DNA of 44,417 nt from Gammaproteobacteria bacterium 42_54_T18. Lineage in GTDB: Bacteria > Pseudomonadota > Gammaproteobacteria > Pseudomonadales > Ketobacteraceae. Positions 5,910-40,651 of this stretch are shown one piece after another; within the stretch, counting starts at the first letter, position 1, and the number at the start of each line of letters is the position of its first letter. The notes below the pieces were generated by a model, which was given only the letters and a program-made list of their open reading frames with translations, searched no databases and was not told the DNA's origin. Location of the stretch: positions 1-44,417 of the forward strand of contig MAAL01000076.1 in the NCBI GenBank assembly GCA_002163245.1, written 5' to 3'. Both the position numbers and the translations under genes were made by a program.

Positions 5910-6070
5910 ACAAGTCCCAACTATAATCTACATGCAGTACCCGGCCCCAAACAACAATAGCTGTAACATTTATAAGCTAAACTGTCGTTTAAGGCATTGC
6001 TACTTTTTGAAGCTTGTTTTTTTAAACAGCTTTCTTATAAAATCACAGTCAACTTTACAGGTTAGTTTTT

Positions 6071-7324: not shown

Positions 7325-7333
7325 GTTAATCAA

Positions 7334-7357
7334 ATAGACTGCCTGTAGGCAGCCTAT
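7334..7357. terminator. Small hairpin between convergent corB and FHA genes
   Basis: CTGCC/GGCAG (7339-7343, 7348-7352) with a four-base loop, extended by ATAG/CTAT (7334-7337, 7354-7357) after one mismatch. It lies in the 49-bp gap between two convergent genes, where a bidirectional terminator is expected, but no T-run follows on either strand. Confidence 0.4.
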
Positions 7358-7373
7358 AACACATCAAACAACC

Positions 7374-8228
7374 TTAACTCCCAGCAACCACTAAATAACC
7401 AACCACAGCCACTATGGCCACCACAATAACACCTGTCGCAATCATCCCACCTTTGCCACTATTAGACCCGGCTGATGCAGCCGAAACGTTATCCTCTGCC
7501 TGCTGAGCTGGGGCAGGTGCCACTGGCTGAATTTTAGGTGGTGGCGCCTTAGGCATCGGAGCAACAGCTCTAAACATGGTCGCTTCTTCTTCATCGTCCA
7601 TAAAATTAGTTGCAGCCGCCACAGGCCCAGCAACTAGAAACACCTCTTTATCAAAACTAATCTTATCGCCAGGTTTGAGCTGATGCTCGTTCACTTTCTT
7701 ACCATTCACACAGGTTCCATTAGAGGAGCCCAAGTCCACGATGCGTAAACCTCCCCCTTTCAGGGACAACTCTGCATGGCGGCGAGACATATACTCACCT
7801 TCAATAATAATGTCACAATTGGAGGATCGACCAAACGTCATTGAGCCATGGATCATAATAGTTCGCCCCTGCATATCACCACCGATTGCAGTGAGCGACC
7901 AATCAGATTTTGCTTTGGCAGCCCCCTGCGTGGCTGGCCGAGTTTTTGGGTCGCTTATTTCAAGCTCAACACGACCAATACTAATAATATCGCCAGAACG
8001 AAGCTGAAAGTTATCGACTACTTTTTGCCCTTCAACGAAGGTGCCTTTGAAACTTCCCAAATCCTTAAGATAAAGCTGACCATCAACAAGTCGAACTTCT
8101 GCGTGTGCTTCCTCAACAGAATCATCGTCTATGACTAAGTGATTTCTTGTACCTGAACCAATGGTAAACACCGACTCAACCAACCAAACCCCTGGCTGTC
8201 TACGGTCTTTAAATTCCAGCTTGAGCAT
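7374..8228 (-). CDS. Double FHA-domain protein with C-terminal membrane anchor
   Basis: Phosphothreonine-binding adaptor of 284 residues. FHA1 (about 8-85) reads FTIGSGTRNHLVIDDDSVEEAHAEV with DLGSFKGTFVEG; FHA2 (about 105-190) is more canonical, with TFGRSSNCDIIIEGEYMSRR followed by HAELSLKGGG and DLGSSNGTCVNGKKV. In FHA1 the usual phosphate-contacting Ser after the variable loop is replaced by Glu (VEEAH), so FHA1 may not bind phosphopeptide in the standard way. A Pro/Ala-rich linker leads to a single C-terminal transmembrane helix (GMIATGVIVVAIVAVVGYLV), suggesting a tail anchor with the FHA domains in the cytoplasm. I prefer ATG at 8228, with GGAAACGG upstream; a GTG at 8240 would add four residues. 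No kinase, phosphatase or type VI secretion gene is adjacent, so the partner is unknown. Confidence 0.85.
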   Translation of the reverse strand: MLKLEFKDRRQPGVWLVESVFTIGSGTRNHLVIDDDSVEEAHAEVRLVDGQLYLKDLGSFKGTFVEGQKVVDNFQLRSGDIISIGRVELEISDPKTRPATQGAAKAKSDWSLTAIGGDMQGRTIMIHGSMTFGRSSNCDIIIEGEYMSRRHAELSLKGGGLRIVDLGSSNGTCVNGKKVNEHQLKPGDKISFDKEVFLVAGPVAAATNFMDDEEEATMFRAVAPMPKAPPPKIQPVAPAPAQQAEDNVSAASAGSNSGKGGMIATGVIVVAIVAVVGYLVVAGS

Positions 8229-8397
8229 ATCCGTTTCCACTCATCGATATTATTACTGTGTCAATTTACTACTGCCCACAATGACAGCCCCCCGAATTAT
8301 CTCATTATTATAGATAACATTTTTAGAATCTACCCTGAAGACAGTCGGATAAGGTTAAATATTCACACCCGACTGCCAAGAAACACTCAAAAAGGCA

Positions 8398-9798
8398 TCA
8401 CTCTGCCTCAGACGGCACCACTTCGGACAATACGTCCACAATATTTTTAACAAAAGCATTGATATCAACCGTATCTCTATCATGAGAAAAGCCCACTCTC
8501 ACAACAACAACATCCAACGACGGAATAATGATCACATAACGCTCCAATGCTCCCACAAATGCAATTGTATCTTCAGGCAAGTCTTCAAAAAACCACCGCC
8601 CCGTATTCAACCATAGGAATGCACCGTAAGATCCATTGGTCTCAGCAGGCGTTAGACTGTAATCCATCCATTCCTCAGACAACACCTGGTCATCACCCCA
8701 ACGTCCCCGGTTACTATACAACCAACCAAGTCTCGCCCAATCCCGCACCGACAACATTAATGATTCCGGTGCCAACATATACCCATCCCCGGAGTGCTCA
8801 ATCAATACACTAGTCACATCTATTTTGTGGAACAGATCATTTCTAATCGTTCGATAGCTGCTTGCTATACCTCCCATCAGATCTTGCAATTTACGAGCAG
8901 CCAATAAATTATCACCACTAGAATAGTTATATAGCTCGCCAGGAGTCGCTACCAGTGATTTCTCAGACATAAATTCAAAAGGTTGCTGCTTGCCATAAAG
9001 TAACAAGCCCTGATCATTGTCATTGCCTATTGCACGCTCGGTATATTTCAACCCACTCGACATATGAGCAAGGTGTCGAAATGTTATCGAGGTTTTATCA
9101 GAACCTTGCCATTCATCAAATGCCAGCGGCGCATCAAGATCAAGCTCTCCCTTGTCATACAAAACACCCCCTAGCGCATTAACTAGACTCTTTGACATAG
9201 AAAAACCTTTTACAGCCGCACTGGACGTTAACCCCCCAGCATACCGCTCAACGATAAGCTTACCGCCTTTAACGATCGCCACTCCCGTTGTATGCTTCAC
9301 TTTGCCATCAGGGTTAACAAATTCTTGATCAAGCAATGCTGTCAACTCGATTAACGTAGCCTCACTCACAGAAGAGGCATCAACACCAGCCCCGCCATAA
9401 GGCCACGGTTTATTTAGCAATACCTTGCCCATCAACGGAAAGTCTACTTGGTTACGCAGCTCTTCTACAGTTTCACCCCGCTGATTAACACAACCCAGCC
9501 CCTCTCTATAAACTGACAACGCCTGATGACGCTGCTTAAACAATTTATCCGAAACGGTAACCTGCTTCCCTTGCTTATCAATATTGATGTTCCAAATAAA
9601 TTTTAACTGGGGAACAATAGAGGTGACATAATCATTCACCAAAAGGTCTTCGTCATACCCTGATACAAATAGCCCACTGCAAATATTTTTTGCAATATAA
9701 CGAGCTCCCACGGGAATATCGTCAATATATTCACACCCTGTTAACGCCCCCAGTAAAGCTACCACCAATAAACTTCGTATTATTTTTGTTTTCATCAT
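8398..9798 (-). CDS. Lipoprotein serine hydrolase, beta-lactamase (S12/class C-like) family
   Basis: Predicted envelope lipoprotein of 466 residues with a serine beta-lactamase-like fold. The signal peptide ends in the lipobox LTGC about 22 residues in. The active-site Ser-x-x-Lys is SMSK in VKGFSMSKSLVNAL (about residue 200), followed by a Tyr-x-Asn motif in GELYNYSSGDN and the typical ITFRHLAHMSSGL segment. The C-terminal half (ESLMLSVRDWARLGWLYSNRG, GSYGAFLWLNTG) matches the 6-aminohexanoate-dimer hydrolase/esterase branch rather than true antibiotic beta-lactamases. The substrate cannot be read from sequence; an ester or amide is likely. Two adjacent ATGs (9798, 9795) follow AGGTGG; I take the first. 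It is divergent from the TonB-dependent receptor. Confidence 0.85.
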   Translation of the reverse strand: MMKTKIIRSLLVVALLGALTGCEYIDDIPVGARYIAKNICSGLFVSGYDEDLLVNDYVTSIVPQLKFIWNINIDKQGKQVTVSDKLFKQRHQALSVYREGLGCVNQRGETVEELRNQVDFPLMGKVLLNKPWPYGGAGVDASSVSEATLIELTALLDQEFVNPDGKVKHTTGVAIVKGGKLIVERYAGGLTSSAAVKGFSMSKSLVNALGGVLYDKGELDLDAPLAFDEWQGSDKTSITFRHLAHMSSGLKYTERAIGNDNDQGLLLYGKQQPFEFMSEKSLVATPGELYNYSSGDNLLAARKLQDLMGGIASSYRTIRNDLFHKIDVTSVLIEHSGDGYMLAPESLMLSVRDWARLGWLYSNRGRWGDDQVLSEEWMDYSLTPAETNGSYGAFLWLNTGRWFFEDLPEDTIAFVGALERYVIIIPSLDVVVVRVGFSHDRDTVDINAFVKNIVDVLSEVVPSEAE

Positions 9799-10030
9799 GC
9801 CCACCTAGAGACCCACGCCTCATGCCCATATCTATGTAATTAACAAACAGCCTATGGGAAAACCGGCAAGAGAAATATCTACCAAATAGGGGATAGTCAT
9901 TCTCACGAAGGCACCTACCCTCCTATCTTTAGGCGTGGAGAGACTGGTCTGAACCTACTACACTTACTTGGAAAGTTAATATTTGCATTCGATAGATATA
10001 TGCTTAAAGCGCATAAAGGAGCTATTTTTC

Positions 10031-12205
10031 ATGCAAGATATTAAAACCCCAAAAACCAATCGCTTTCAAATTAGTATATTAGCAGGAGCCTTGGCTGCTA
10101 TATTTCTCAATTCAGCTTCTTTGGCGGAATCTCTATCTGCTGACCACAAAGAAACTTCTGAAAAGAGTGTAGATGCCCTTCTCAGTCTGAGTTTCGAAGA
10201 TTTAATAAAAATTGAGGTGGTTTCAATAGGTTTTTTTGCCATGGAAAGAAAAAGGTCGCCGGGGAATTCCTATGTATTAAGTCTTGATCAAATCGAAAAC
10301 TCTCCCGCTCGCTCATTATCAGATTTGATTGATATGAATGTCGTTGGCATGGATGTCGGCGAGCATCGTTTTAACTCAACCCTGATCGGCTCTCGCGGGG
10401 TTACTGTAGATAATAATGCCAAAACATTGGTGATGATGGATTTGTGGCAATTAAATCAAAGGCAGCACATGGGTTATATGCTGCCAGCGAAAAATCCTTT
10501 GATGGGTGATATCCAAAGTATAGAAGTCATTATGGGTCCAGGCGCTATCGTGCATGGCAGTGGTGCTATGAACGGTTTTATCAATATGATTTCAAAAACA
10601 GGCTCATCCCATGAGGGCACAGAGGTAAATTTTGAATATGGCGACATAGAGCAATACGCTAGTGCTGAAGTCAGTTATGGAAAAAAATGGTCTGAACAAA
10701 AAGATTTCTATATTTATGTCGGGGTTCAAAATACTCAAGGTTTCACGCCGGATAACCAATATAACCAAACTGCTTATCCTGGTTATGAATATAATGATTT
10801 ACAAACCAAAAAAACCTACGATAAAAACTACAAAATATCAAGCAACTTCAAAAACCATAGTTTTAGCTTAAAAGCCTTGCATGTCATGTTCAATGAAGAG
10901 ACATCGCATTGGATTTATGCAGACAGTAGCTGGCCTATTTCACCAAGAAAATTCGCATTTTTTGGCATTAGCCCTAAATATATTCAAGAAATAGATGAAC
11001 ATAATTCCATAGAATATATTGGCGCCATTGAATATAGTGATTTTGGTGGGCGTAATCGTAAAGATCCTGAAAACCCTTTCCCCTTTGGCACTAAAGAAAA
11101 TCATTTTGAGGGCAAAGTTATTTTTAAAAATAAATATGAAACGAGTAAGCTGGCCATTGGTGTGTTATGGGGGAAACGTAAATTTGAAAATGGAAAAACA
11201 TATTTTATAGACAACCCTACATTACCATTTCCAAATGATGATGGGGTGACTGGCTCGTGGGAAGAAGGCGCGTTATTTTTGGAAGACACACTGACTATAG
11301 GAGAAAAAACTACGTTATCCTTGGGCTTAAGATATGACTATGTAAGCTATGGTACCGCGACTACCAGTGATAACCTAGCAAGCGATTTGGACAGTGAGTC
11401 CCATACTACACCTAGAGCAGCCGTGGCATATGATATAACCAATGATTCAACGATTAAGTTTTCTTATCAAGAGGGCTTCCGTTACCCTGATATGGCTTAT
11501 TACAGTTGGTGGATTTTTCATAACGAAACTCTGAAATCGGGAGGGCATGAATTGCCTACATTAACACCAGAAACAATGAAAAGTTACGAGCTAGGGTACT
11601 TTAGCAAAATAAATAACAACCTTACACTTACGGCAAACGCTTACCATAGCGTTTACAAGAATCAGTTGGGATGGGTTAACTTTGACAGGGAAAACCCTTA
11701 CATTTCACCGGCGGCTTATGATTATGCAACATCGGTCAATGGTTGGCTTGGTTCGTTTATGAACCAAGAAAATGAAATCAGTACTATTGGTGGTGAACTG
11801 ATTGTCAATTGGTCTTTTGAAGATGATCACGATCTAAATATGGGCGTAAGTAAAGTTAAAATGAAAGACTTCCAAGAAAAACGCTATCCACCTTTACAAG
11901 TTAAAGCGACTCTTACTTCGAAATATTTAGACAATCGATTGTCGATTGTATTTAATCATCACTACAATTTTGGCCTATCAAAAGGTGATCATTCGAACAT
12001 GCACTCTGATTACAAAGAGGCTCGCTCTGTATTCAATGCATCAGCAAAATATTCATTTTCAGATTCGTTTAATGCCAAGTTATCAATAATTAATATTTTT
12101 GAAAATGACACACCTAAATATACATTTGACTTGTCTAGCCCGTGGTTAACTGCGTCAGGTAATAATCATCGATATATCTATCTTAACGCAAATTACAAAA
12201 TATAA
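10031..12205 (+). CDS. TonB-dependent outer-membrane receptor
   Basis: Outer-membrane gated channel energised by TonB, 724 residues. A signal peptide (FQISILAGALAAIFLNSASLA, about 12-32) is followed by the short SLSFEDLIKIEVVSIG segment common ahead of the plug in many receptors. The plug (about 75-190) has NSPARSLSDLIDM, the IGSRGV motif, and SIEVIMGPGAIVHGSGAMNG with INMISKTG; a 22-strand-type barrel follows, ending in RYIYLNANYKI. The start is ATG 10031 with AAGGAG ten bases upstream; an earlier TTG in frame at 9983 has no ribosome site. The ligand cannot be inferred. No TonB/ExbBD, siderophore or glycan genes lie nearby. The gene looks more AT-rich than the flanking housekeeping genes, which would fit horizontal acquisition. 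Confidence 0.93.
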   Translation: MQDIKTPKTNRFQISILAGALAAIFLNSASLAESLSADHKETSEKSVDALLSLSFEDLIKIEVVSIGFFAMERKRSPGNSYVLSLDQIENSPARSLSDLIDMNVVGMDVGEHRFNSTLIGSRGVTVDNNAKTLVMMDLWQLNQRQHMGYMLPAKNPLMGDIQSIEVIMGPGAIVHGSGAMNGFINMISKTGSSHEGTEVNFEYGDIEQYASAEVSYGKKWSEQKDFYIYVGVQNTQGFTPDNQYNQTAYPGYEYNDLQTKKTYDKNYKISSNFKNHSFSLKALHVMFNEETSHWIYADSSWPISPRKFAFFGISPKYIQEIDEHNSIEYIGAIEYSDFGGRNRKDPENPFPFGTKENHFEGKVIFKNKYETSKLAIGVLWGKRKFENGKTYFIDNPTLPFPNDDGVTGSWEEGALFLEDTLTIGEKTTLSLGLRYDYVSYGTATTSDNLASDLDSESHTTPRAAVAYDITNDSTIKFSYQEGFRYPDMAYYSWWIFHNETLKSGGHELPTLTPETMKSYELGYFSKINNNLTLTANAYHSVYKNQLGWVNFDRENPYISPAAYDYATSVNGWLGSFMNQENEISTIGGELIVNWSFEDDHDLNMGVSKVKMKDFQEKRYPPLQVKATLTSKYLDNRLSIVFNHHYNFGLSKGDHSNMHSDYKEARSVFNASAKYSFSDSFNAKLSIINIFENDTPKYTFDLSSPWLTASGNNHRYIYLNANYKI

Positions 12206-18289: not shown

Positions 18290-20773
18290 TTGACTCGCAA
18301 CCCTTCGACTTCGACACTTTTTATTGCCATTATCATTGGCGTTTTTTTCAATTTCCCCGTTTTTGCCGCTAATCAACCCAGCCTGCCCACAACGTCCATC
18401 AGTGCATCTGCTATCGATGGCGTACTTAACTTGGATGGAAAAATACAATACCTTGAAGATGCCGACGCTCTATATAATGTTGACGACATTCTTGCAGGTC
18501 ACTATTACGGAAATTACAAAACAACCCAAGGAACATTTAACAAAGGCATGACCACTTCGGCCTTTTGGTTTGTACAGCCTCTCCACAACCCGTCGACCTC
18601 ACAAGATATTCACCGACTACTCGAAATCTCCTACCCTCCGCTGGACAATGTTGACGTTTATGTCATTTCTTCTAATGGCACCCGTGAAACAATGCAGGCT
18701 GGGGACAGCAAACCTTTTGAAGTTCGACCTAAACAAGATAGTAGCTATCTATTCCCCATCCACTTCGCAGCCAACGAAAAAAAACTGGTACTTATTCGTG
18801 TGCAATCGGAGGGTAGCGTCCGCGTTCCAATAAAATTATGGAACCCCATTCAATACGAAGAAAGCAATCGAAAGTACCTACTGATCATGGGTATCTATTT
18901 TGGCATTATGCTGCTGATGATTATCTATAACTTCTGCATTTATATTTCCATTAAAGATGTCAGCTATTTATTTTATGTCTGCTACATTGCAGCACATACT
19001 ATATTGCAATCAACACTAACAGGGTTTGGGGCAGAGTTTATATGGCCGTCATTGCCCTGGTTTAACAACCAATTCCTTATTGTTTCTATTCTTCTCACCG
19101 AAGTCTTTGCTCTTGTTTTTACAGCCAATGTTCTTAACACGAAAACAACAACACCTTATGGTCACAAGTTAATTCAAGCATTTATAGTGCTAGCGACACT
19201 CAGTCTTTTTGCCTCGATAGCCCTTCCCTACGCAACCAGCCTTAAAGTTGTACTTGTGCTTGGTATGTCAATGTCAATGTTCGGGATATTCATCGGCACA
19301 AAACTAGCGCTGCAAGGCTATCAAACGGCAAGATTCTTTATTTTGGCATGGTTTTCATTCTTATTGGGTGCATTAATTTACGGTGCGACAACAGCGGGAC
19401 TGCTCCCAGCAACCACATTCACAACCAACGCATTGATCCTTGGATCAACACTGGAAGTCGCTATTTTATCTTGGACGTTAGCCGATCGCTTAAGCCGTAT
19501 GCAGCGCGACAAAACTAAAATGGAGAAAACCGCAAAAATTGCATTACAACAGGTCAATGACGCCTTAATTGAAAGTCATCAAATTAAAGATGAGTTTCTT
19601 GCAACGATTAGCCATGAACTTCGCACGCCAATGAACGGCATTATTAGCTCAATAAGCCACTTACAAAATGAAAAAGACATTACCGCACAAGCACCGTTTA
19701 TCCACAGCGCAGATCGCTCGGCAAGTCATATGATGCTGCTTATCGACAGCGTTCTAAGTTATACCGAATTGTTATCAAACGAATCTGTCGTTGAACGACA
19801 CCCTTTCCAACTGAGAAAAGTCACTCATTTCTTAGATGAATACTTCACACCCCAATGCCAAGATAAACATCTAACATTTATGGTTGATATAAATGAAGAC
19901 GTCCCCTCACTGGTATTAGGAGATCAACGCAAGCTAACACAAGTGCTTGTCAGTTTAATCGACAACGCCATTAAATTTACAGAGTGTGGCTATATTCGCC
20001 TTGCAATCGACCTCGACTCACTGGACAAAACGAATAAAAAAATAAAACTCACTTTTAAAATCGAAGATACCGGCATTGGCATACCTAAAGCGTTAGGCAA
20101 CGAAATTTTTGAACGTTTTTCCCAAGCAGACAGCTCTTTCCATCGCGGGCATGGCGGCCTGGGAATAGGCCTTGCTATTGCAAAACAAACAGCCAACTTG
20201 CTGGACGCAGAATTAACCTATGAATCAATCCCCTCACATGGATCAATCTTTACCTTTACTGCTCAATTTGAATACACCAGAGCATTAGCGTCCACTACAT
20301 CAAAAGAAGCCTATAAAATAGAAGACCTGGCCAAAGGGAAGACAGCCCTTGTTGTCGAAGACAACAAAGTTAATCAACTCGTGCTTCAAACAACACTCAA
20401 AAAGCTTGGGTTTTCTGTTGTATGTGCAATTAATGGAGAGGACAGCCTCAACAAACTCAATGAAAACGATATTGATATTGTCTTAATGGACTGCCAAATG
20501 CCAATAATGGATGGCTTTGAAGCCACCCGAAACATTCGCCAATTAGCCAACGTAAAAAGCCTTGTACCTATCATTGCCGTTACCGCCAATGCTATGTCGA
20601 AGGATAGAAACCGCTGCTTGGAATCCGGCATGAATGATTATATGAGCAAACCCGTCTCATTGGATGAACTCAAAGACAAATTACTCAAGTGGCTGCCACT
20701 AGGGAAACCTGAGACAACCAACACTTACATCAACGAAAAAAACAATATTATAAAATTTGGGAATACCCAATAA
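18290..20773 (+). CDS. 7TMR-DISM hybrid sensor histidine kinase
   Basis: Membrane hybrid kinase of 827 residues. Order: signal peptide (1-27), periplasmic 7TMR-DISM extracellular domain (about 45-175, a jelly-roll-like fold often linked to carbohydrate sensing), seven transmembrane helices (about 197-400), a short coiled coil, HisKA with His442 in [12 protein letters not shown], HATPase with [15 protein letters not shown] and [12 protein letters not shown], and a C-terminal receiver with [10 protein letters not shown] and phospho-acceptor Asp734 in [17 protein letters not shown], plus the conserved Lys in YMSKPVS. There is no Hpt or DNA-binding output domain. The start is TTG at 18290, six bases after AAGGTGG. 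No partner regulator lies nearby; it resembles the kinase at 38231. Confidence 0.93.
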
Positions 20774-26779: not shown

Positions 26780-26824
26780 TTGAGCCGTCGGATACCTTGG
26801 CTCTATAAACGTAACTATGCGTAG
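26780..26824 (+). other. Possible 14-codon leader frame overlapping mltF
   Basis: A TTG at 26780, two bases after AAGGAG, opens 14 codons (MSRRIPWLYKRNYA) ending in a TAG at 26822-26824 that overlaps the mltF start in another frame. The mltF ATG itself has no ribosome site, so coupling is possible. The short spacing and the rare start codon make this uncertain. Confidence 0.3.
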
Positions 26825-28247
26825 TAACATCACCTACAACTCAACATTTCAGGCGCTTACCGTATTAGCATTAATGCTAGTATTATCGGCATGCCAGCCT
26901 CAAAAAAGCCTGCTGGAGTCCATTCAGCGTCAAGGCGAGCTGGTGGTTGCAACCCGCGTAGGCCCAACAACCTATTATCAAGAGCTAGATCAATATACTG
27001 GGTTTGAATACGAGCTTTCTAAACAGTTTGCTGACTACCTGGGTGTTCGACTAAAGGTTGTCACTTACAAAGACCTTGGTGAACTACTCAATGCTTTAAA
27101 AAATGGAGATGTTCATTTTGCTGCGGCGGGCCTCACTATAACGAAAGAACGAGCCCAAGAGTTTCGATTCACATCACCTTACCAGCAAGTCTCTCAAAAA
27201 GTCATTTATCAGAAAGGGACATCTAAGCCTAACAATGTTCAAGGCCTCAACCAGGGTTCTTTAGTTGTTATTGCTAACAGCAGCCACTCCGAACATCTAC
27301 AGCGTCTTCATGACAATCATAACAAAATCACTTGGACAGAAAAATCTAACAGCACCATGCTGAGCATGTTAAATCTTGTTAACGACGGGCAAGCTACATA
27401 TACCATTGTAGATTCCAATGTATTTGATCTACATCGAGACATATTCCCAGAACTAAAATCCGCATTTAACATCAAGGATTGGGAGCCTCTTGCGTGGGCT
27501 TTCCCCCCAACCTCTGACACTACACTTTATGTCGCTGCAGAAAATTTCTTTAATAAAATCAATGAAGACGGGTCTTTAGAAGAGCAAAAGGAACGTTTTT
27601 ACGGCCATCGTGACTTTAACTATGTTGGCGCTAGAACCTTTATTGCACATATTGATAGCCGTCTATCGCGCTACGAAGAAGACTTCAAAAACGTTGCTAG
27701 TGAGCTAAATATTGACTGGCGGCTATTAGCTGCTGTGGGATATCAAGAGTCCCTCTGGAACCCAAATGCCATCTCACCGACAGGTGTACGAGGCTTAATG
27801 ATGCTTACCCAACGAACCGCAAAAGAGATGGGTGTGCGCAATAGGCGGGACCCCAAACAATCCATTGATGGTGGTGCCAATTATTTTAAAAAGCTTTATA
27901 ACCGCTTACCAAAAGGTATCAGCGAACCTCATAGAACTTGGTTTGCTTTAGCAGCTTACAATACGGGATATGGCCATGTACAAGATGCCCGGATTCTCAC
28001 GGAGCAACAAGGCAAAAACCCAAACAACTGGTTTGACGTCAAATCACATTTACTCCTACTTAAGAAACGTAAATATTATCAGCATGCCAGGCATGGCTAC
28101 GCCCGCGGTGCAGGTCAATCCATATTGTATGTTAAAAATATTCGTCGCTATTATGACTCTCTCGTATGGGCTACAGAAAAGTCCGCAGCGCATTATGTTC
28201 CTGTACCACAAACGTCCCTGGCAATGCTAACGCCAATCGCACAATAA
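26817..28247 (+). CDS. mltF: Membrane-bound lytic murein transglycosylase F
   Basis: Outer-membrane lipoprotein of 476 residues that cleaves peptidoglycan to give 1,6-anhydromuramoyl products. A signal peptide ends in LSAC (Cys26). Next is an extracellular solute-binding-like regulatory domain (about 40-270: LVVATRVGPTTYY, GFEYELSKQFADYLGVRLKV, DVHFAAAGLTITKERA) and then the lysozyme-like domain (about 290-430) with catalytic Glu311 in AAVGYQESLWNPNAISPTGV and RGLMMLTQRTAKEMG, ALAAYNTGYGHVQDAR and YARGAGQSILYVKNIRRYYD. The domain order equals E. coli MltF. The only in-frame ATG is 26817; an in-frame stop lies at 26781. Expression is likely from the TATAAT promoter at 26653. In Pseudomonas mltF is also beside purL. 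Confidence 0.96.
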   Translation: MRSNITYNSTFQALTVLALMLVLSACQPQKSLLESIQRQGELVVATRVGPTTYYQELDQYTGFEYELSKQFADYLGVRLKVVTYKDLGELLNALKNGDVHFAAAGLTITKERAQEFRFTSPYQQVSQKVIYQKGTSKPNNVQGLNQGSLVVIANSSHSEHLQRLHDNHNKITWTEKSNSTMLSMLNLVNDGQATYTIVDSNVFDLHRDIFPELKSAFNIKDWEPLAWAFPPTSDTTLYVAAENFFNKINEDGSLEEQKERFYGHRDFNYVGARTFIAHIDSRLSRYEEDFKNVASELNIDWRLLAAVGYQESLWNPNAISPTGVRGLMMLTQRTAKEMGVRNRRDPKQSIDGGANYFKKLYNRLPKGISEPHRTWFALAAYNTGYGHVQDARILTEQQGKNPNNWFDVKSHLLLLKKRKYYQHARHGYARGAGQSILYVKNIRRYYDSLVWATEKSAAHYVPVPQTSLAMLTPIAQ

Positions 28248-28521
28248 GCTCTACCCCCACCCCTGCTCCGCTAGATTTAAAAGCTAATTAGCTTTTCCTC
28301 TTAAAAACAAACTGTGACCCAACCCGCAAGTCCCAGCCATAAGCCCTTATTGACCCCTCGTTTTTACGACTTATAACTTGCTCAACCTTTGGTCATAACA
28401 GTACCATCGTCTCGATTTTCGATTGTGAGCATTTACGCAAAACATAAAACCATAATATGCGTACCACAACCTAAATCATTTTCGATATTTTTCTTTTATT
28501 TTACCTTTTTGGGGTCACACA

Positions 28522-30134
28522 ATGAAAACAACTCGCACGCTAGGAGCACTTTATTGCCTGGATACGATTTTATCTCCGATAGCTGGGCAGCCAACGATGG
28601 CTCTGGCAGAGATAGTGACGCTAGTGACGCTGGCGATGCATTAAGCGCAGGACAGTGCGGTAACGGCTACCCTCAACAAGATCAAGGTAGTAGCTGGCAC
28701 GGTACTCATGTCGCGGGAACCATTGCCGCATCAAGTAACAATGGCTTTGGCGTCGCCGGCGTCGCATGGAACAGTAAAATTCTTCCTGTTCGCGTATTAG
28801 GCCGATGCGGCGGCTATACCTCAGATATTTCCGATGGTATGCGCTGGGCAGCGGGCTTGTCTGTTTCAGGCATTCCAAATAACCCCAATCCAGCTAAAGT
28901 ACTAAACCTTAGCCTCGGTGGGACAGCCTCTTGTACACGAACATATCAAGATACCATCAATGCGGTACGAGCAACTGGGGCATCCATCATTGTTGCCGCG
29001 GGTAACGAAAGTCAAAATGCGTCACTCTCAACTCCAGCAAATTGTGAAGGTGTTGTTGTCGTTGGCGCTACCGACAGAAATGGGGGCCAAGCTTATTATT
29101 CCAATTTTGGTACAACGGTAGACATCTCTGCTCCCGGTGGAGAAATGTTTAGCAACTCCTCACTCAATGCCGTTTTATCAACCCATAATACCGGCAGCAC
29201 TTCACCACAAAGTGATAATTATGCTTATCTACAAGGTACTAGTATGGCAACACCACATGTCGCTGGTGCCGCATCATTGCTTTATGCCATTAATGCCGAG
29301 CTAACACCTGATGACGTACTTAACGCATTAACATCAACCGCACGCTCATTCCCTGCAACTAACTCCAATGATCAATGCAACACCTCAAAGTGTGGTGCTG
29401 GTATTGTTGATGTAAAAGCAGCGCTTATCGCTGTTGGCGGCTCAACAGAACCTCCAGTTACCGCGATAAGTACATTAGAAAATGGCGTTATCGTAAATGA
29501 TATCTCTGGTGGCACGGCGCAAGAACTTCATTACACCATTAACGTACCAGAAGGTGCGACCAACTTAGCATTTACACTTGCAGGCGGCTCTGGAGATGCT
29601 GACCTTTACGTACGTTTTGCTAGCAAAGCCTCCGAGAACGAGTGGGACCAGCGCCCCTACAAAAACGGGAATAGCGAGATCGTCTCTATTGCAGAACCGA
29701 AGGTAGGTACCTACTACCTAATGCTTCGGGGTTACCAGGTGTTTGCTGGCACATCAATTGTTGCTACGTTTGACGAACCTGTTGAACTCAACTTTTTTGA
29801 AAATGTCAGACAGTTTGCAATCCCCGACAACTCCCCTGCTGGTGCAACAAGCCCTATTAATGTTACTCGGTCTGGCGACTCTGGAAAAATAACTGTTTCA
29901 GTTGATATTCGTCACAGCTATATCGGAGACCTGAAAGTAAAACTGTATACACCAAGCGGGGCATCTGCAACACTCTCTGCAAACACAGGAGGTAGCGCAG
30001 ACAACCTCATCAAGACCTACAGCTTTAATGCAGGAACGTTGAATTCGTTAGGCGAATGGCGCCTAGAAGCGACTGACAATGCAAGAAGAGACACCGGTTA
30101 TATTAACAATTGGAATATAACTTTCGAGAACTAA
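28522..30134 (+). pseudogene. Subtilisin-like S8 serine protease lacking its N-terminus and catalytic Asp
   Basis: Most of a secreted S8 protease is intact in one frame: GYDFISDSWAANDGSGRDSD, catalytic His in SSWHGTHVAGTIAA, VLNLSLGG, IIVAAGNE, catalytic Ser in QGTSMATPHVAGAASLL, then a PPC domain (SGDADLYVRFAS, GTYYLMLRGY) and a C-terminal P domain (NVRQFAIPDNSPAG ... GEWRLEATDNA). In relatives this begins right after VxVIDTGxxxHxDLxxN; that segment with the catalytic Asp, the pro-region and the signal peptide are missing. An ATG at 28522 after GGGG reads MKTTRTLGAL, a plausible signal-peptide start, but it is out of frame with LLPGYDF and stops at 28644. I infer a non-multiple-of-three deletion at about 28545-28556. 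The protease frame is open upstream to 28389, but only from a TTG without a ribosome site. An assembly error remains possible. Confidence 0.8.
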
Positions 30135-30204: not shown

Positions 30205-30606
30205 ATGCTAATCTCATTAAGACACATAGTGCTTATCATAAGTTTTACTTTCTCAGTGCAAGCCTGTGCAGCAGAAAAGCAAATTCACCACGACACTCAA
30301 TTTATTGTACAACTTACCGATACCACCATTCAGAAACTCCAGAGCGGCGCACAAAAAGTAGAGGTTCACCGAAATAAAAAACTACAACAGTGGGGTCAGC
30401 AAACAGGGCTTGCATTAAAAGCCGTCCCTCCGACAAACCAACAGCGCTGGATTATTAAAGCCAACACCCAAGATGCCACTCATATAATAAACCTGATCAA
30501 TACAGTAAGTGATGATATTGACGTAAAATACATTGAAAGGGATAGCATCATGACGATTCAGCCCATACAACGACCAATCCCCATGCTACCTCCAATGACC
30601 CCCTAA
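30205..30606 (+). CDS. Exported stand-alone I9 propeptide-like protein (putative protease inhibitor/chaperone)
   Basis: Exported protein of 133 residues: signal peptide (LRHIVLIISFTFSVQACAA, about 5-23) followed by one domain that reads like a subtilase pro-region. The predicted order beta-alpha-beta-beta-alpha-beta fits Inhibitor I9: DTQFIVQLTD, a helix through KVEVHRNKKLQQWGQQ, ALKAVPP, RWIIKAN, helix ATHIINLINTVSDD, and DVKYIERDSIMTIQ, which recalls the propeptide ending VAYVEEDHxA of subtilisins. The tail is proline-rich. I9 domains fold and inhibit their protease. Here it is a separate gene 70 bp after a protease remnant that lacks its own pro-region. ATG at 30205 with AAGG eight bases upstream. 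The match rests on fold pattern and motif, not a database search. Confidence 0.6.
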   Translation: MLISLRHIVLIISFTFSVQACAAEKQIHHDTQFIVQLTDTTIQKLQSGAQKVEVHRNKKLQQWGQQTGLALKAVPPTNQQRWIIKANTQDATHIINLINTVSDDIDVKYIERDSIMTIQPIQRPIPMLPPMTP

Positions 30607-30749: not shown

Positions 30750-33032
30750 ATGCGCATAACCAAGTACTCAAAGCTAAATACATTTAACCAAACAACAAAA
30801 CCACAGACATCACCTAAACGTAAATCTATGAAGTTATTGGAACGCACAAAGCGGTTATTGAAATTCAAAGATGACCGAGAATTCTTGGCAGACTCATTTA
30901 TTGATGAACTCCATTTCCAGTCCCGCCGCGTAGTATTCCTTGTATACGTTGCCTCCTTCTGTTGGATCCCTTACATTTCTGTCGATAAAGAGCTACACCC
31001 AGACCAACCCTTGATTGTCATATTACGATGGCTGCTAGTTGCCGTGGGGGCATTAACCTTCGGACTTAGCCACCATCCGTATTTTGCTCACCGTCAACAA
31101 TATCTGATTACCATATTAGGCGGCTATATCATTATTGCAGCTGGATTGGTGACTGGTCTGAGTGGTTGTGACCCAACCTACGTATCTGGTTATGTTTTAC
31201 TTCTTTGCTTACTCTGCATGCCTCCAATTGAAAAAAGGATCACGTTATCTGTCCTTGTTGCCAGTCTGTTGTTTTTTTGTGTTAGCGCTCTTTATGTCGG
31301 TATTGACGTTACATCATTACGAGTGCGATACAGCCTGAACGATCTTATGGCTACCGTCCTTATTGCCACAACCTTTATTTTTATTCTTGATCGTAATCGA
31401 CACCAAAGCTGGAAAAACGCAAAAATTATCGAAAAAGAATCTCAACGAAAAGTTAGTGAAGCAGAGGCAGAAAACAAAGCGAAAAGTCAATTCCTTGCCA
31501 CCATGAGCCATGAAATCCGCACCCCAATGAACGGGGTAATCGGCATGACCGAACTTTTACAAACCACAGGACTGGAACAACAACAGCGGCAATACTTAGA
31601 TGTCATCTCCAACTCAGGAAAAGCATTGCTTAATATCATCAATGACATTCTGGATTATTCAAAAATAGAAGCGGGAAAGCTTGAGCTAGAATCCGTTGAC
31701 TTAGACCTTGATAAACTTTGCCTTGATGTCACTTCCGTATTTGGTCTTACCGCAGAGAAAAAGAAACTCGAGTTATTAGTAGCCATAAAACCTGGCACAC
31801 CAATCTTAATTAAAAGCGACCCCACCCGCTTAAGACAAATCTTATTAAACTTACTCGGCAACGCCTTTAAATTCACCAACAACGGGGGGGTCACCCTACA
31901 CGTCAAACCTATCCCGCAACATACCAACAGTTCAACAACCTTACTTAAATTCGAAATAAAAGACACCGGCATTGGTATGAATGACGAGCAAGTTGCGCGT
32001 TTATTTAGCGCCTTCAGCCAAGCCGACAGTTCAACTACCCGTGAGTTTGGTGGGACGGGTTTAGGGTTAAGCATATCAAAGTCCCTTGCAGAACTAATGG
32101 GCGGTGAAATTGGCGTAACCAGTGTATCCGGTGAAGGTTCTACATTCTGGTTTTCCATATGTTGTGAGATTGCTGATGTGCAATTTATCAAACAACACCA
32201 ACTTCCCGCATCACTACTCAAAGGAAAAAAAGTATTATTTGTCGATGACTCCACTGAGTTTACGCACGTTGTACAAGAGCAAGCTATTTCCTGGGGAATG
32301 AAAGCCAATGTTGCATATTATGGCGATAAAGCGCTCGAAATCATGCGCACCGCGGCAGCTAACAACGCCCCGTTTGATATTGTCTCCCTCGATATGAACA
32401 TGCCAGGGTTAAGTGGCATGGATATCGCTGAAATAATGCAAAGGGATACTGAACTACGTGATATAAAACGCGTATTACTTACCGCAATGCGTACTACACC
32501 ACCAAAGGAAAAATTACATCAAGCAAACATTGAAGTGGCCATGCAAAAACCCGCATCAGCTCGAGTTATAAAAGAATGCTTTCTATCCATACTCGACGAT
32601 CAAAAAACAAGCGAAGTCGAAAAGGCAAAAAACCAATATTCCAACATTATCAGCGGGAAGAATATTTTGGTTGCTGAAGACAACACCGTCAATCAAATGG
32701 TCATAACAAACATGCTTAAGAAGTTAGGCGCTAAATGTGTCGTTGCTAACGATGGCGCATTAGCCGTCGAACGATTTAAAGACACATCTCGGCGTTTCGA
32801 CATAGTATTAATGGATGTTGAAATGCCAAATATGGATGGCTGTGATGCCACAATAGCTATTCGTGAAGTAGAAAAAAATGAATCTCGTGCCCCAACCCCA
32901 ATCCTAGCCCTAACAGCACATGCGATGCGAGAGCACCAAGAGCTATGTGAAAAAGCAGGTATGAATGGACTCCTAAGTAAACCACTAGAATTAGATGTAC
33001 TAAGAAGCAAGCTCTGTGAATACTTAGCCTAA
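30750..33032 (+). CDS. Hybrid sensor histidine kinase with two receiver domains
   Basis: Membrane hybrid kinase of 760 residues. The N-terminal part has five or six transmembrane helices (about 60-213) with short loops and no recognised sensor domain. Then HisKA with His254 in ATMSHEIRTPMNG, HATPase with NAFKFTNNG, KDTGIGM and GGTGLGLSISKSL, a first receiver (about 494-610, Asp548 in SLDMNMPGLSG) and a second receiver (about 636-758, Asp689 in VLMDVEMPNMDG). The first lacks the usual DD pair layout of the second but keeps FVDDS. Neither ATG candidate (30750, or 30828 giving MKLLERTK) has a ribosome site, so the start is uncertain by 26 residues. No output regulator is adjacent. Confidence 0.92.
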   Translation: MRITKYSKLNTFNQTTKPQTSPKRKSMKLLERTKRLLKFKDDREFLADSFIDELHFQSRRVVFLVYVASFCWIPYISVDKELHPDQPLIVILRWLLVAVGALTFGLSHHPYFAHRQQYLITILGGYIIIAAGLVTGLSGCDPTYVSGYVLLLCLLCMPPIEKRITLSVLVASLLFFCVSALYVGIDVTSLRVRYSLNDLMATVLIATTFIFILDRNRHQSWKNAKIIEKESQRKVSEAEAENKAKSQFLATMSHEIRTPMNGVIGMTELLQTTGLEQQQRQYLDVISNSGKALLNIINDILDYSKIEAGKLELESVDLDLDKLCLDVTSVFGLTAEKKKLELLVAIKPGTPILIKSDPTRLRQILLNLLGNAFKFTNNGGVTLHVKPIPQHTNSSTTLLKFEIKDTGIGMNDEQVARLFSAFSQADSSTTREFGGTGLGLSISKSLAELMGGEIGVTSVSGEGSTFWFSICCEIADVQFIKQHQLPASLLKGKKVLFVDDSTEFTHVVQEQAISWGMKANVAYYGDKALEIMRTAAANNAPFDIVSLDMNMPGLSGMDIAEIMQRDTELRDIKRVLLTAMRTTPPKEKLHQANIEVAMQKPASARVIKECFLSILDDQKTSEVEKAKNQYSNIISGKNILVAEDNTVNQMVITNMLKKLGAKCVVANDGALAVERFKDTSRRFDIVLMDVEMPNMDGCDATIAIREVEKNESRAPTPILALTAHAMREHQELCEKAGMNGLLSKPLELDVLRSKLCEYLA

Positions 33033-33064: not shown

Positions 33065-33580
33065 CTAGTGTTTTTGATGTTGTTTTTGATGTTGTTTCTG
33101 CCGTTTTTTTTCATCCCTTCTACGTTTAAAAAATTGAGACAACATATCTCCAGCAGTATCGGCTTCCAACCCATGACGACATAATACACGGTGATTTAGC
33201 TGCGGCGACAAGAAAAATTCCTGCGTACTAACTAGCGCTCCTGATTTCGGTTCTTTGGCTGCAAAAACTACGTCCTGTATTCTCGCATGCACTAGTGCTC
33301 CTGCGCACATAGAACATGGCTCTAACGTAACATAAAGCGTAGCACCAGGTAAGCGATAATTTTTTTCCTGCTTACATGCATGTCGCAAGGCAACAAGCTC
33401 AGCATGTGATGTCGGGTCACAGGTTGTAATTGGTTGGTTAAACCCCTCTCCAATTAACTTCCCATCACGCACAATAACAGCCCCTACAGGGACTTCTCCA
33501 GCAACCTCGGCTTGCTCAGCCAAAACTAGCGCTTTCTGCATCCAAGCACGGTCATCTTCGGTAAATACAGGTTCTTTCAT
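33065..33580 (-). CDS. tadA: tRNA-specific adenosine deaminase TadA
   Basis: Deaminates A34 to inosine in tRNA-Arg(ACG). The 171-residue product has the zinc motifs HAE (in DPTSHAELVALRHA, about 58) and PCSMC (in TLEPCSMCAGALVHAR, about 88), and GEVPVGAVIV and GEGFNQPI near the N-terminus. The C-terminal tail is very basic and repetitive (KRQKQHQKQHQKH), encoded by a 12-bp DNA repeat. ATG at 33580 has no ribosome site; its first bases overlap the stop of a tiny upstream frame. It lies upstream of, and opposite to, the preceding kinase. Confidence 0.95.
   Translation of the reverse strand: MKEPVFTEDDRAWMQKALVLAEQAEVAGEVPVGAVIVRDGKLIGEGFNQPITTCDPTSHAELVALRHACKQEKNYRLPGATLYVTLEPCSMCAGALVHARIQDVVFAAKEPKSGALVSTQEFFLSPQLNHRVLCRHGLEADTAGDMLSQFFKRRRDEKKRQKQHQKQHQKH
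33070..33105. repeat. 12-bp tandem repeat encoding the QHQK tail of TadA
   Basis: GTTTTTGATGTT at 33070-33081 and again exactly at 33082-33093, with a third copy at 33094-33105 carrying three changes. On the minus strand the units read QHQK, QHQK and KRQK. The length is a multiple of three, so copy-number change would keep the frame. Confidence 0.85.
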
Positions 33581-36894: not shown

Positions 36895-36999
36895 TCATTG
36901 CATCCTGCGATTCAACACATCAATTTACACATCAGCAAGCCCCACAAGTGTATACATTTGCCCCCTTTCTCCACAATGAACAAAAATTCTTTGCTAATA

Positions 37000-37027
37000 T
37001 TAATCAAAACAGTTTTTTACCTATAAT
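37000..37027 (+). promoter_or_regulatory. Candidate promoter of the solute-binding-like gene
   Basis: Perfect TATAAT (37022-37027) with a weak TTAATC (37000-37005) 16 bp upstream. It points to the gene at 37090, giving a leader of about 55 bases. Confidence 0.5.
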
Positions 37028-37089
37028 TAACGCTATCAAATCACCAACACCTCATTAAACCTATGGTTATGATGACAAAAAGGTTGTAA

Positions 37090-38043
37090 ATGAATGCTTT
37101 TATTACCAAAAAACAAGCAGTAAGGTGGCGCCCAATACGCTACTCTGTCGTATTTAAAGCAGCGTTTACAGCGCTGTTTATTGCCACCGTTGCTATGTTG
37201 TCACCATCAAATGCCGTCGCAAAACCGGAAATTCGCTGGCTAACTTGGGATTTCGAGCCAGACTTTGTGCAAAGTGGTGAATACCAAGGTAAAGGTTACG
37301 GTGACAAGCTTCTCTCTAAATTACAGGCATTACTTCCAGAATATACGCACACCCAACGTATCGTAAACAGCAAGCGCTGGGCTGTAGAAGCACAACAACC
37401 CAATACTTGCTCTTCTTTGCTGTGGCTAGGGTTTCTTCCGGGGAAAATCGTATATTCCAAACCCTACGGTATGACGCCACCTTATGTTGTTGTCGTACAT
37501 GAAAAAAAAGCGCACCTGATTGGCAAACCTGAAGACAAGATATCCTTGGTTGAGCTACTAAAGCGCCCTAACCTGACGCTTGGAGTGCTGCCGGTTTATA
37601 TGGATAAAGACCAGAAAAACACGCGTTATCCCATTCTCCACTCTTATCTTAAACCGTATTTAAATACCAGTAAGATGAAAGAATTTGGGGGTGGAGCAAA
37701 TCAATTAAACTTAAGCCTATTGGACGCAAACCGAGTAGACTATTTGATTGAAAACCCCTTAACAGCGCCAACCTCAGCTAAACTAAATTCCGAAAAAAAC
37801 CATTTTATTAACTATCCATTAAAGGAGCACGGTATTTATAAAGAAATCGCTGTTGCCTGCACCAACGACGCTTTTGGCCGCAAAGTTATTTCAAAATTAG
37901 ATCCTTATATAACACTAGAATTCATTAAGGAGTTTCTAGCTTATATGGAAGAGTGGAATGAAAAAAACGCAGCGTTTCGTAACGCCGTATTACAACACTT
38001 CCAAGCTAAATCAATAGTCGATAATACGACAAACAAACAATAA
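37090..38043 (+). CDS. Periplasmic solute-binding-like protein (TIGR02285-like)
   Basis: Exported protein of 317 residues, type II periplasmic-binding fold related to bacterial SBP family 3. A signal peptide (FKAAFTALFIATVAMLSPSN followed by AVA) ends near residue 44. The start of the mature part, IRWLTWDFEPDFVQSGEYQG followed by KGYGDKLLSKLQALLPEY, together with IVNSKRWAVEAQQPNTCSSL and IVYSKPYGMTPPYVVVVHE, matches the TIGR02285-type family, which is widespread in gammaproteobacteria and unassigned. No ABC permease is nearby, so it is unlikely to serve transport alone. ATG at 37090 with AGG seven bases upstream. The 7TMR-DISM kinase starting 187 bp downstream on the same strand could be a signalling partner. 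Confidence 0.75.
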   Translation: MNAFITKKQAVRWRPIRYSVVFKAAFTALFIATVAMLSPSNAVAKPEIRWLTWDFEPDFVQSGEYQGKGYGDKLLSKLQALLPEYTHTQRIVNSKRWAVEAQQPNTCSSLLWLGFLPGKIVYSKPYGMTPPYVVVVHEKKAHLIGKPEDKISLVELLKRPNLTLGVLPVYMDKDQKNTRYPILHSYLKPYLNTSKMKEFGGGANQLNLSLLDANRVDYLIENPLTAPTSAKLNSEKNHFINYPLKEHGIYKEIAVACTNDAFGRKVISKLDPYITLEFIKEFLAYMEEWNEKNAAFRNAVLQHFQAKSIVDNTTNKQ

Positions 38044-38230
38044 CGACAGATACCAAACTACCTACACGCTATACGCCACTGACCAGAGAGACACTTATGC
38101 AATTCTTTCCCCGCACTTACGTAGCACTGCATAAACTTTTGACATAAGATAGCCTGCAACAACAACAAGAACGGGCCACTCCTTGCGGACATATTCAAGT
38201 TTCTTTTCTATTTGCCGTATTTTTATCCTA

Positions 38231-40651
38231 ATGGCGACACAATCAAGACAAGCACTCGCAGCGGCCGTCGCATTCTGCGGCACCTTATCGATGGTAATAA
38301 TCTCAATAACCATAATAACGATAGCTCCAGCTTACGCTTCACCTTATTCCATAACACCTATTGAACTATCAACTATAGAACTGCCAATCAGTGGAAACCT
38401 TATTGAAAAAGGAAGGCTTTATTACAACCCCTCCAACCAACCACCCAATTGGGATGCTCCAGCAGCATTCCTAGAGCAACTAAAACCCGTCAATGATATC
38501 AATATAAAAGGTGGGGATTTTTGGTTAAACCTCTCTGTCAAAAACGCCACTGAGGTTGAGCGTTGGTCGATTAAAGTCGACGGCTCATTCATCGAACACA
38601 TCCAAGCCTTTATATTCACGCACAGCGCAATACAAGGTATGGATCACAACCAACCTCGCCTGGTTGAATTCCCAAAAGGAGGACAGTTTGATGGCGGTGA
38701 CTATCTACATCATTATGGAATGGACATATCCTTAACACCGAATGCTAATTATGACATATGGGTCAATTTACAAAGCAGTTATTTTACCGCATCACCGCAC
38801 GTTCAAATATTTACTACCAAAGACTTCGCCAATGACGTCAATAAAAACAACTTTCTTATTGTCGGTTGCCTGGGATCAATCCTAATATTGGCGCTGTACA
38901 ACTTTCTTATCTACCTCTGGACTCAAGCCAAAGAATATCTATTCTATTCTGCCTATTTAATTTCAACACTTGCCGGGTGGGCGGCTGTATTCGGCATATT
39001 TTCACATTTTTTCAACAGCAATAGCATCGCACTAATTATGCTGCCTTTTTATACCAACATTATTTTTAATGTATATTTCTATCAGCACTTCCTAGATTTA
39101 CCCGAAAAACACCCCCTGATGTCCAAGCTCAGCTACGGTATTGTTGGCATATGCCTAGTGCTAATGGCAACCTACCGCTTTACGCCAGAATGGATTAGCT
39201 ATGTTTTTATTAATGTCGTTAATTCTATCTGGCTAGTAACCGGTCTCTTTTGTGGCATTCGCCGACTACAAGACGGTTATAAGCCCGCAAGGTTTTTTGT
39301 ACTTGGGTTTTCTACCGTGTTTATTGGTGGCTCTTTTATCATCTTGCCATACTTTGGGTTTCCTCGGTTTGTTAAAGAAGCATATTTAGTCGCCCTTATT
39401 GGACAAACGTTAGACGTATTGTTTCTTGCGCTCGCATTAGCTGACCGAATCAACAATTTACGAAAAGAGAAAGAAATAGCACTTAAACTTGCACACAGCA
39501 TTGAAAAAACAGCCAACCAAACGCTTACCGCTGCCAACAACAAGCTACTCGACGCTCTTCATATTGCCGCTCAAAATCAACGTCAAAAGGATGAGTTTTT
39601 AATTGCCGTTAGCCATGAATTGCGAACCCCTCTTAATGCAATTACCGCATCACTATCACAGCTTAGACACAGCAATGAGCCGTCAGAACAACAAAACTTA
39701 CAAAATTACATTCAATTCGGCACCGAACGATTAGCCGCTCAAGTTGAAAATATTGTGATATTAGCGGAGCTGGACGAGGAAAACATTACCCCTCAAGAGG
39801 AAACATTTAGCGCTCGCGAATTACTCGAAGAACTCGAAGAAATGGCGCAAGGCTACCTTATAGAAAAAGACATTGTATTCAAAACGGTTAAGTCATCATC
39901 CGTTTCAGATTATTACACCGGCGACAGACACCTACTGGTACGAATGCTTGCTCCCATCATCGACAATGCCTGCAAATACACAACATCGGGCAATATCAAC
40001 CTGCAGCTTGCCGACAAGTGGGGCAACCTTATTTTTGAGGTTATTGATTCTGGGCCAGGTATTCCTGCTGATCGACAAGAAGGTATTTTTGATAGTTTTA
40101 TGCAGGTAAGTTCTGGCTATCAAAGGGACCATGAAGGCCTAGGGTTAGGCTTAGCCATCAGCAAACGTATTGCTGAGCTGTTAGATGCAAGCATCGAATT
40201 CGACGTGGTTATCCCTCATGGCTGCCACTGCATCATTACCTTACCCATTAGAAAACAAGAGAACGCACCTCAACACAGCACTCACAACATTCAAACTGCA
40301 CACGCGCTAATTGTCGAAGATAACAAAGTAAATGCAAAAGTCTTACAAACCCTTTTGGCCAAACTGGGTGTGAGTGCCGACGTTGCAGAAAATGGCCTAA
40401 TTGCCCTCAATGTGACAGATCATAATCACTATGACCTTATTTTTATGGACCTACAAATGCCCAAAATGGATGGTTTTGCAGCAACAGAATCCATGCGATC
40501 CAAAGGCATAACAACACCCGTGATAGCCGTTACTGCCAATTCTGATTACAAGTCACGTAAACGTTGCGCCGAAGTTGGAATGAATGACTTCCTGGCAAAA
40601 CCCATAAAGAAATCCACTCTACTACAATCAATCAAACGCTGGGTCGGCTAA
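38231..40651 (+). CDS. 7TMR-DISM hybrid sensor histidine kinase (second copy of this type)
   Basis: Membrane hybrid kinase of 806 residues. Signal peptide to about residue 35 (MVIISITIITIAPAYA), DISM extracellular domain (about 50-195), seven transmembrane helices (about 205-400), short coiled coil, HisKA with His462 in AVSHELRTPLNA, HATPase with DNACKYT, DSGPGIP and GLGLGLAISKR, and a receiver with LIVEDNKVNAKVLQ and Asp740 in IFMDLQMPKMDGFAATE and the Lys in FLAKPIKK. No Hpt or DNA-binding domain. I use ATG 38231; a TTG at 38183 would add 16 residues; neither has a good ribosome site. Same architecture as the kinase at 18290 but clearly diverged. It follows the binding-protein gene at 37090. 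Confidence 0.92.
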   Translation: MATQSRQALAAAVAFCGTLSMVIISITIITIAPAYASPYSITPIELSTIELPISGNLIEKGRLYYNPSNQPPNWDAPAAFLEQLKPVNDINIKGGDFWLNLSVKNATEVERWSIKVDGSFIEHIQAFIFTHSAIQGMDHNQPRLVEFPKGGQFDGGDYLHHYGMDISLTPNANYDIWVNLQSSYFTASPHVQIFTTKDFANDVNKNNFLIVGCLGSILILALYNFLIYLWTQAKEYLFYSAYLISTLAGWAAVFGIFSHFFNSNSIALIMLPFYTNIIFNVYFYQHFLDLPEKHPLMSKLSYGIVGICLVLMATYRFTPEWISYVFINVVNSIWLVTGLFCGIRRLQDGYKPARFFVLGFSTVFIGGSFIILPYFGFPRFVKEAYLVALIGQTLDVLFLALALADRINNLRKEKEIALKLAHSIEKTANQTLTAANNKLLDALHIAAQNQRQKDEFLIAVSHELRTPLNAITASLSQLRHSNEPSEQQNLQNYIQFGTERLAAQVENIVILAELDEENITPQEETFSARELLEELEEMAQGYLIEKDIVFKTVKSSSVSDYYTGDRHLLVRMLAPIIDNACKYTTSGNINLQLADKWGNLIFEVIDSGPGIPADRQEGIFDSFMQVSSGYQRDHEGLGLGLAISKRIAELLDASIEFDVVIPHGCHCIITLPIRKQENAPQHSTHNIQTAHALIVEDNKVNAKVLQTLLAKLGVSADVAENGLIALNVTDHNHYDLIFMDLQMPKMDGFAATESMRSKGITTPVIAVTANSDYKSRKRCAEVGMNDFLAKPIKKSTLLQSIKRWVG

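Follow-up and report, generated by a model that had tools for sequence, protein, structure and literature searches.

Proteins that inhibit S8 proteases (subtilases) without being attached to them are the closest described counterparts of the gene pair considered here, which lies in a 44,417-nucleotide contig of Gammaproteobacteria bacterium 42_54_T18 (MAAL01000076.1, assembly GCA_002163245.1; this whole stretch is called the window below) and consists of an S8 protease remnant followed by a small gene. In Plasmodium falciparum, SUB1-ProM is a stand-alone S8 propeptide-like protein shown to inhibit SUB1, and the MEROPS I9 stand-alone inhibitors include Pleurotus POIA1, the yeast protease B inhibitor and Arabidopsis SPI-1 (PMC6993865). 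In Aeromonas sobria, ORF2, encoded with a serine protease, acts as both chaperone and inhibitor, its C-terminus binding the active site, and ORF2-like operons are reported in Vibrio, Shewanella, Chromobacterium and Pseudoalteromonas (PMC5638518).

The window pair resembles each of them in part. Like SUB1-ProM, the small gene is one of a family that neighbours subtilase genes, the enzymes in question already carrying propeptides, and shows little sequence similarity despite a fold that is predicted to be common; the I9 inhibitors are likewise small, unattached propeptide mimics that inhibit subtilases (PMC6993865). As with ORF2, a small gene stands beside that of a secreted S8 protease in gammaproteobacteria (PMC5638518). 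SUB1-ProM and the I9 inhibitors are eukaryotic, and inhibition by SUB1-ProM has been shown, whereas the window family is bacterial, putatively inhibitory, and persists beside dead proteases, an orphan retention that is not described in the accessible part of PMC6993865. Our reading of the locus, which we consider rather probable, is a two-gene unit in which the protease has freshly died and the neighbour encodes a stand-alone S8 inhibitor that is sometimes kept after its partner dies. Pseudogenes of secreted proteases are ordinary. What the pair would add, if this reading is true, is an unattached propeptide-like family providing a further layer of protection or regulation for S8 proteases that already have a propeptide of their own, and one that selection can preserve once the protease is lost; we found no description of such a bacterial layer in the open-access literature.

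The protease open reading frame (ORF) runs from a TTG start at 28389 to 30134 (581 aa), and its homologous part, the remnant proper, remains open from 28551 through the stop at 30134. It directly follows a gene for an SBP_bac_3 and SLT transglycosylase protein (26817-28247; Pfam), which marks the left border of the inserted pair; this gene, the remnant and the small gene all lie on the + strand. A preliminary description of the window had stated that the His and Ser motifs, the PPC domain and the P domain were intact, and this was borne out: the Peptidase_S8 part with both motifs spans 28662-29402 (E 2.2e-51), and the PPC domain (29529-29732) and the P domain (P_proprotein, 29886-30125) each match Pfam above cut-off. 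Since the Peptidase_S8 match covers profile positions 41-288 of 288, the end bearing the catalytic Asp is missing. Translation of 28248-28700 gave no D-T-G segment in any of the three + frames, in agreement with the earlier statement that no VIDTG occurs upstream, and similarity to solved S8 enzymes starts only at LLPGYD, which the best PDB rows place at query residues 51-52. The best PDB matches of the catalytic domain, Pseudoalteromonas arctica 5yl7 (E 3.8e-98) and Dichelobacter AprV2/AprB2/BprV, are alike in this domain; the window copy is without the N-terminal third, including the Asp. The preliminary description had the frame opening 20-odd residues before GYDFISD; 57 residues are in fact open, made up of the former leader and upstream DNA, with no protease homology. 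The signal-like ATG at 28522, said there to be out of frame, is so: it aligns with the start codons of the intact genes in the same-genus comparison genomes G001 and G003, and now opens a 40-aa ORF (28522-28644) outside the protease frame.

Comparison with these genomes accounts for the missing part. In G001, the corresponding contig (L033, CAJXXT010000115.1, 17.6 kb, a metagenome-assembled genome of an uncultured gammaproteobacterium) holds 520 bases that are absent from the window, the junction lying at 28550-28551 on the + strand (in the blastn pieces, position 28550 pairs with L033:2262 and then with L033:2782, so that the two edges have 1 base in common). Among the four breaks in the alignment of the window with L033, no other takes away an internal portion of a gene present in both; the remaining three are intergenic or reach only the ends of listed ORFs. 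Because 520 leaves a remainder of 1 when divided by 3, the original start at 28522 is out of frame. In both G001 and G003, the orthologue reads without interruption and comprises a signal-like start, a propeptide, and the VIDTG, HGTHVAG and GTSMATPH motifs; that of G003 is 76% identical across the remnant and that of G021, in which D, H and S motifs and an uninterrupted frame are also kept, 57%. The comparison with related genomes thus supports the earlier proposal that an internal deletion inactivated a secreted protease, and the presence of an intact gene at the same site in G001 and G003 led us to reject a gain of the protease in place of a loss in the source genome (G000). By comparison with its intact orthologues, the first gene once encoded a secreted S8 protease with signal, propeptide, catalytic, PPC and P domains, from which a single 520-base deletion has taken precursor residue 11 to just past the Asp segment while shifting the frame. 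Neither an exported nor an active enzyme would then be possible, as the Asp segment and any in-frame signal peptide or propeptide are absent from the remnant, its leader being out of frame and its propeptide deleted. A dead S8 protease in the window is therefore supported.

That the shortened frame still serves a purpose, such as supplying an S8-PPC-P protein devoid of catalytic activity, we regard as highly improbable. The 581 open codons and the possibility of non-ATG starts speak for it, but no signal peptide, propeptide or Asp is in frame, the sole leader is out of frame, and the low ratio of nonsynonymous (N) to synonymous (S) changes in the remnant is accounted for by recency. Another apparent break, L007 (G055), was rejected as a broken protease, its frame being intact with SVIDTG and the counted stops lying beyond it. 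In L076 (G572:C238, 98-1887), an S8 gene lies in two overlapping frames, with the propeptide part in one and the catalytic part, from profile position 43 on, in the other; this is possibly another broken S8 gene or a sequencing error.

The age of the loss was estimated from changes in the remnant polarised with G003 as outgroup. The branch of the source genome carries 17 N : 78 S changes and that of G001 16 N : 59 S (Fisher p 0.70), with 12 and 6 polarised amino-acid changes respectively. Under a two-rate model, the best estimate of the neutrally evolving fraction of the G000 branch is 0, with upper bounds of 3.7% (95%) and 6% (99%), an estimate that is approximate because synonymous sites are partly saturated (dS 0.84, G000 versus G001). 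These rates support the earlier impression of a recent loss. As the remnant shows no N excess, either the deletion happened very recently, within the last 4-6% of the branch at most, or it arose in assembly. That the gap stems from faulty assembly or binning, with an intact protease in the living strain, appears distinctly unlikely to us. It would fit a draft of 199 contigs with a contamination of 3.93 and a remnant showing no relaxation at all, but the flanks are collinear with G001 on both sides of the junction (86% and 83% identity), the shared repeat at the two edges is no longer than 1 base, and the missing 160-aa stretch has no close copy elsewhere in the G000 assembly, where it matches two S8 paralogues (35% and 38%) and one insignificant row with stops (E 0.1). 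Other protease losses are also seen in related genomes.

The less expected part of the locus is the neighbour of the protease, which the preliminary description had not linked to it. The small gene (30205-30606) starts 70 bases past the S8 stop and encodes a 133-aa protein that opens with a signal-like segment and closes with a proline-rich tail. Its counterparts in G001, G002 and G003 are 76%, 63% and 48% identical to the window protein. An alignment of 11 small proteins (A6) was compared by hhalign with one of the own propeptides of six proteases (A7), giving a probability of 95.2 and E 2.8e-8 over 93 columns. When the PDB was searched with A6, the top three of the eight rows at E≤10 were subtilisin prosegments (E 0.014-0.042), and five of the eight were S8 propeptides or proenzymes. 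In a proteinase K proenzyme row, likewise from a PDB comparison, the YIE-D segment of the family and the residues after it align with the propeptide end. A hidden Markov model (HMM) of A6, run at E≤1 on 1181 ORFs from 53 S8 loci, matched 48 of them, S8 N-termini among the matches: 39 long ones, each of which contains an S8 His or Ser motif, and nine small ones. Four of the small matches are A6 members (G021, G760, G761, G764), and the remaining five are new candidates in G767, G770, G760 (a second one), G005 and G051, those of G005, G051 and G770 with E 0.0009-0.008. The G565 small protein, the best member, reaches E 0.00068 against the Fervidolysin prodomain (20.4 bits, cut-off 21). The AlphaFold2 model predicts a beta-alpha-alpha-beta-beta-alpha-beta order, the right one for a ferredoxin-like propeptide fold, with a predicted local distance difference test score (pLDDT) >90 over most of the core and a floppy proline-rich tail.

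Several observations weigh against this assignment. The first, smaller alignments gave an hhalign probability of only 21-23%, and the PDB sequence matches of the family stay short of E 0.001. Against Pfam I9 the window protein stays below the cut-off (E 0.13, 13.4 bits, cut-off 21.2); the match covers residues 33-61, off the YIE-D segment. I9 matches two of eight members, both below cut-off, and unrelated families score as well or better; the own propeptides of the intact proteases likewise fall below the Pfam cut-off. Foldseek returned no match at E≤0.001 for the small-protein model, and generic ferredoxin-like folds top its list, with the PCSK9 prodomain at rank 30 and later 27. The element order of the predicted fold, the sequence comparisons and the context of the gene nevertheless make a stand-alone S8 propeptide-like inhibitor the most likely identity. 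The gene is a member of a family of unattached propeptide-like genes that evolves fast. The second gene of the pair would encode a small, probably exported protein that has the predicted fold and the sequence signature of S8 propeptides but no attached protease, and which most likely binds the S8 active site as a propeptide does and inhibits it; a proline at the propeptide-end position may render such proteins resistant to cleavage. Inhibition of this kind would protect the envelope or time the activity of the protease.

The association with S8 genes was assessed from genome searches blind to gene context, which covered several sets (small genes or rows in 4/57, 6/390, 4/10, 8/37 and 5/369 genomes) and yielded 13 small genes, in G000, G001, G002, G003, G021, G172, G193, G213, G760, G761, G764, G772 and G565. 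Eleven of the 13 adjoin an S8 gene (G001, G003, G021, G760, G761, G764, G565), an S8 remnant (G000, G772) or an S8 relic (G172, G193). The small gene follows the protease in G001, G003 and G760 and precedes it in G021, G761, G764 and G565; in the last of these, which represents another family of the class, it lies directly before the S8 gene. Of the two exceptions, G002 has sister genomes that carry the protease at this site, and G213 yielded no significant S8 relic (its score was reached by 12/300 shuffles). Five of six P-domain orthologues have an adjacent small gene (G001, G003, G021, G760, G770, the G770 candidate being weak), and the flanks of the sixth, G768, hold none. As nine of the 53 scanned S8 loci have a small gene, most S8 genes of the order are without one.

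In the class-wide profile search, the five of 369 genomes were the source genome itself, G565 and three whose rows are not small genes, the four rows besides the own genome being weak (E 3.8e-4 to 8.7e-3). The rows of G572 and G733 were rejected because they fall within, or run into, the N-terminal region of an S8 gene, and that of G477 because it is an unrelated DUF4426 protein. A match in G764:C44 (E 0.006) was taken as chance, with no S8 gene nearby. Stand-alone propeptide-like candidates that lie directly before S8 genes include one in L108 (G760:C14) and that of G565 (L077, G565:C8).

The same adjacency could be explained if the small protein, like ORF2, were a separate chaperone that helps its neighbour to fold and lingers after the protease is lost; we think this unlikely. 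The Aeromonas sobria serine protease (ASP) is reportedly propeptide-deficient, whereas the partners of the present family carry their own propeptide in G001, G003, G021, G761, G764 and others in the scan, and so have no obvious need of an external chaperone. In G172 and G193, moreover, the small gene is constrained although its neighbour is a relic. No Aeromonas chain appeared among the PDB rows of A6 at E≤10, a comparison that ORF2 itself lay outside. The roles of chaperone and inhibitor are not mutually exclusive.

Evidence that the small gene can outlive its partner comes from genus g12. In G021, the order is small gene, protease and a selenophosphate-synthase-like gene (the last named by eye). 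G172 and G193 have the same outer genes, and between these genes the P-domain end persists as degraded DNA, with protein-level scores of 52 (G172) and 42 (G193), each reached by 0/300 shuffles, and blastn pieces at E 2e-8 and 1.1e-5, respectively. Relative to G021, both relics lack about 113-115 bases at one place, which indicates that the protease had probably been inactivated before the two lineages diverged. Between their small genes, dN/dS (the ratio of the N to the S substitution rate) is 0.39 with dS 0.45, the N rate being below the S rate (one-sided p 0.00046), as under purifying constraint, and the three orphan small genes of g12 show dN/dS 0.22-0.39 versus 0.10-0.25 for two neighbouring control genes. 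Each of these orphan-carrying genomes has an S8 paralogue with a frame of 465-473 aa, which may be the target of its orphan.

Two other genomes count against retention. In G772 (L090, G772:C2), the small gene has an internal stop and stands beside a gutted protease, residues 135-547 of 694 being unmatched, so that the catalytic part is gone while the propeptide and P domain remain. In the protease-less G002, the private codon changes of the small gene are 23 N : 10 S versus 7 N : 19 S in G001 (p 0.0016), and dN/dS for the G000-G002 pair is 0.41; the gene thus evolves faster there, as if under relaxed or redirected evolution, and may be decaying in that lineage or becoming fitted to a different target. 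An orphan "shield" kept by selection is thus suggested by G172 and G193 and contradicted in part by G772 and G002. Where the small gene is kept after the death of the protease, its presumed targets would include other S8 proteases, whether paralogues that the same genome encodes or enzymes of neighbouring cells. Orphan immunity genes are retained in interbacterial toxin systems. By analogy, the small gene might be an immunity-type inhibitor against the cell's own S8 proteases and those of kin or competitors, and so be kept as an orphan once the costly protease is lost, an extension that we find rather unlikely. The gene family offers a direct test of whether producers and non-producers of such proteases differ mainly in the weapon while sharing the shield.

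The site itself varies within the genus. G002 lacks the protease: the small gene comes 60 bases after the SLT gene, with no S8 remnant found at the site. In G004, other genes follow the SLT gene, and neither the protease nor the small gene is present at the site. These two arrangements indicate that the protease/small-gene pair occupies a site that is empty in some relatives. A single loss shared by G000 and G002 is unlikely, given that the G000 remnant has been neutral for at most 4-6% of the branch since G001. Gene trees conflict as to which genomes are sisters: the PurL gene groups G000 with G001 (100), the SLT gene G000 with G002 (82), and the gene at 33065-33580 G001 with G002 (93).

Some features of the surroundings were recorded besides. 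A scan for promoters and terminators gave scores no better than those of shuffled sequence. A hybrid histidine kinase gene of 760 aa (30750-33032) adjoins the small gene in the window; its G002 copy (L041 2663-4462) has 599 aa and is without an internal stretch (window ~32227-32633), and G003 has no such kinase between the small gene and the next conserved gene. Two further hybrid histidine kinases, with 7TMR-DISM sensor regions, are encoded at 18290-20773 and 38183-40651. About 1.2 kb of the window (36919-38095) is not in G001, where 27 bases separate the flanks, and it contains a 317-aa ORF (37090-38043) with no Pfam match at E 0.001. Where synteny between the window and G002 ends, L041 carries a 2049-aa ORF (5455-11604) with a P-loop-like motif recognised by eye, which by its look is a large nucleoside triphosphatase and possibly a defence gene.
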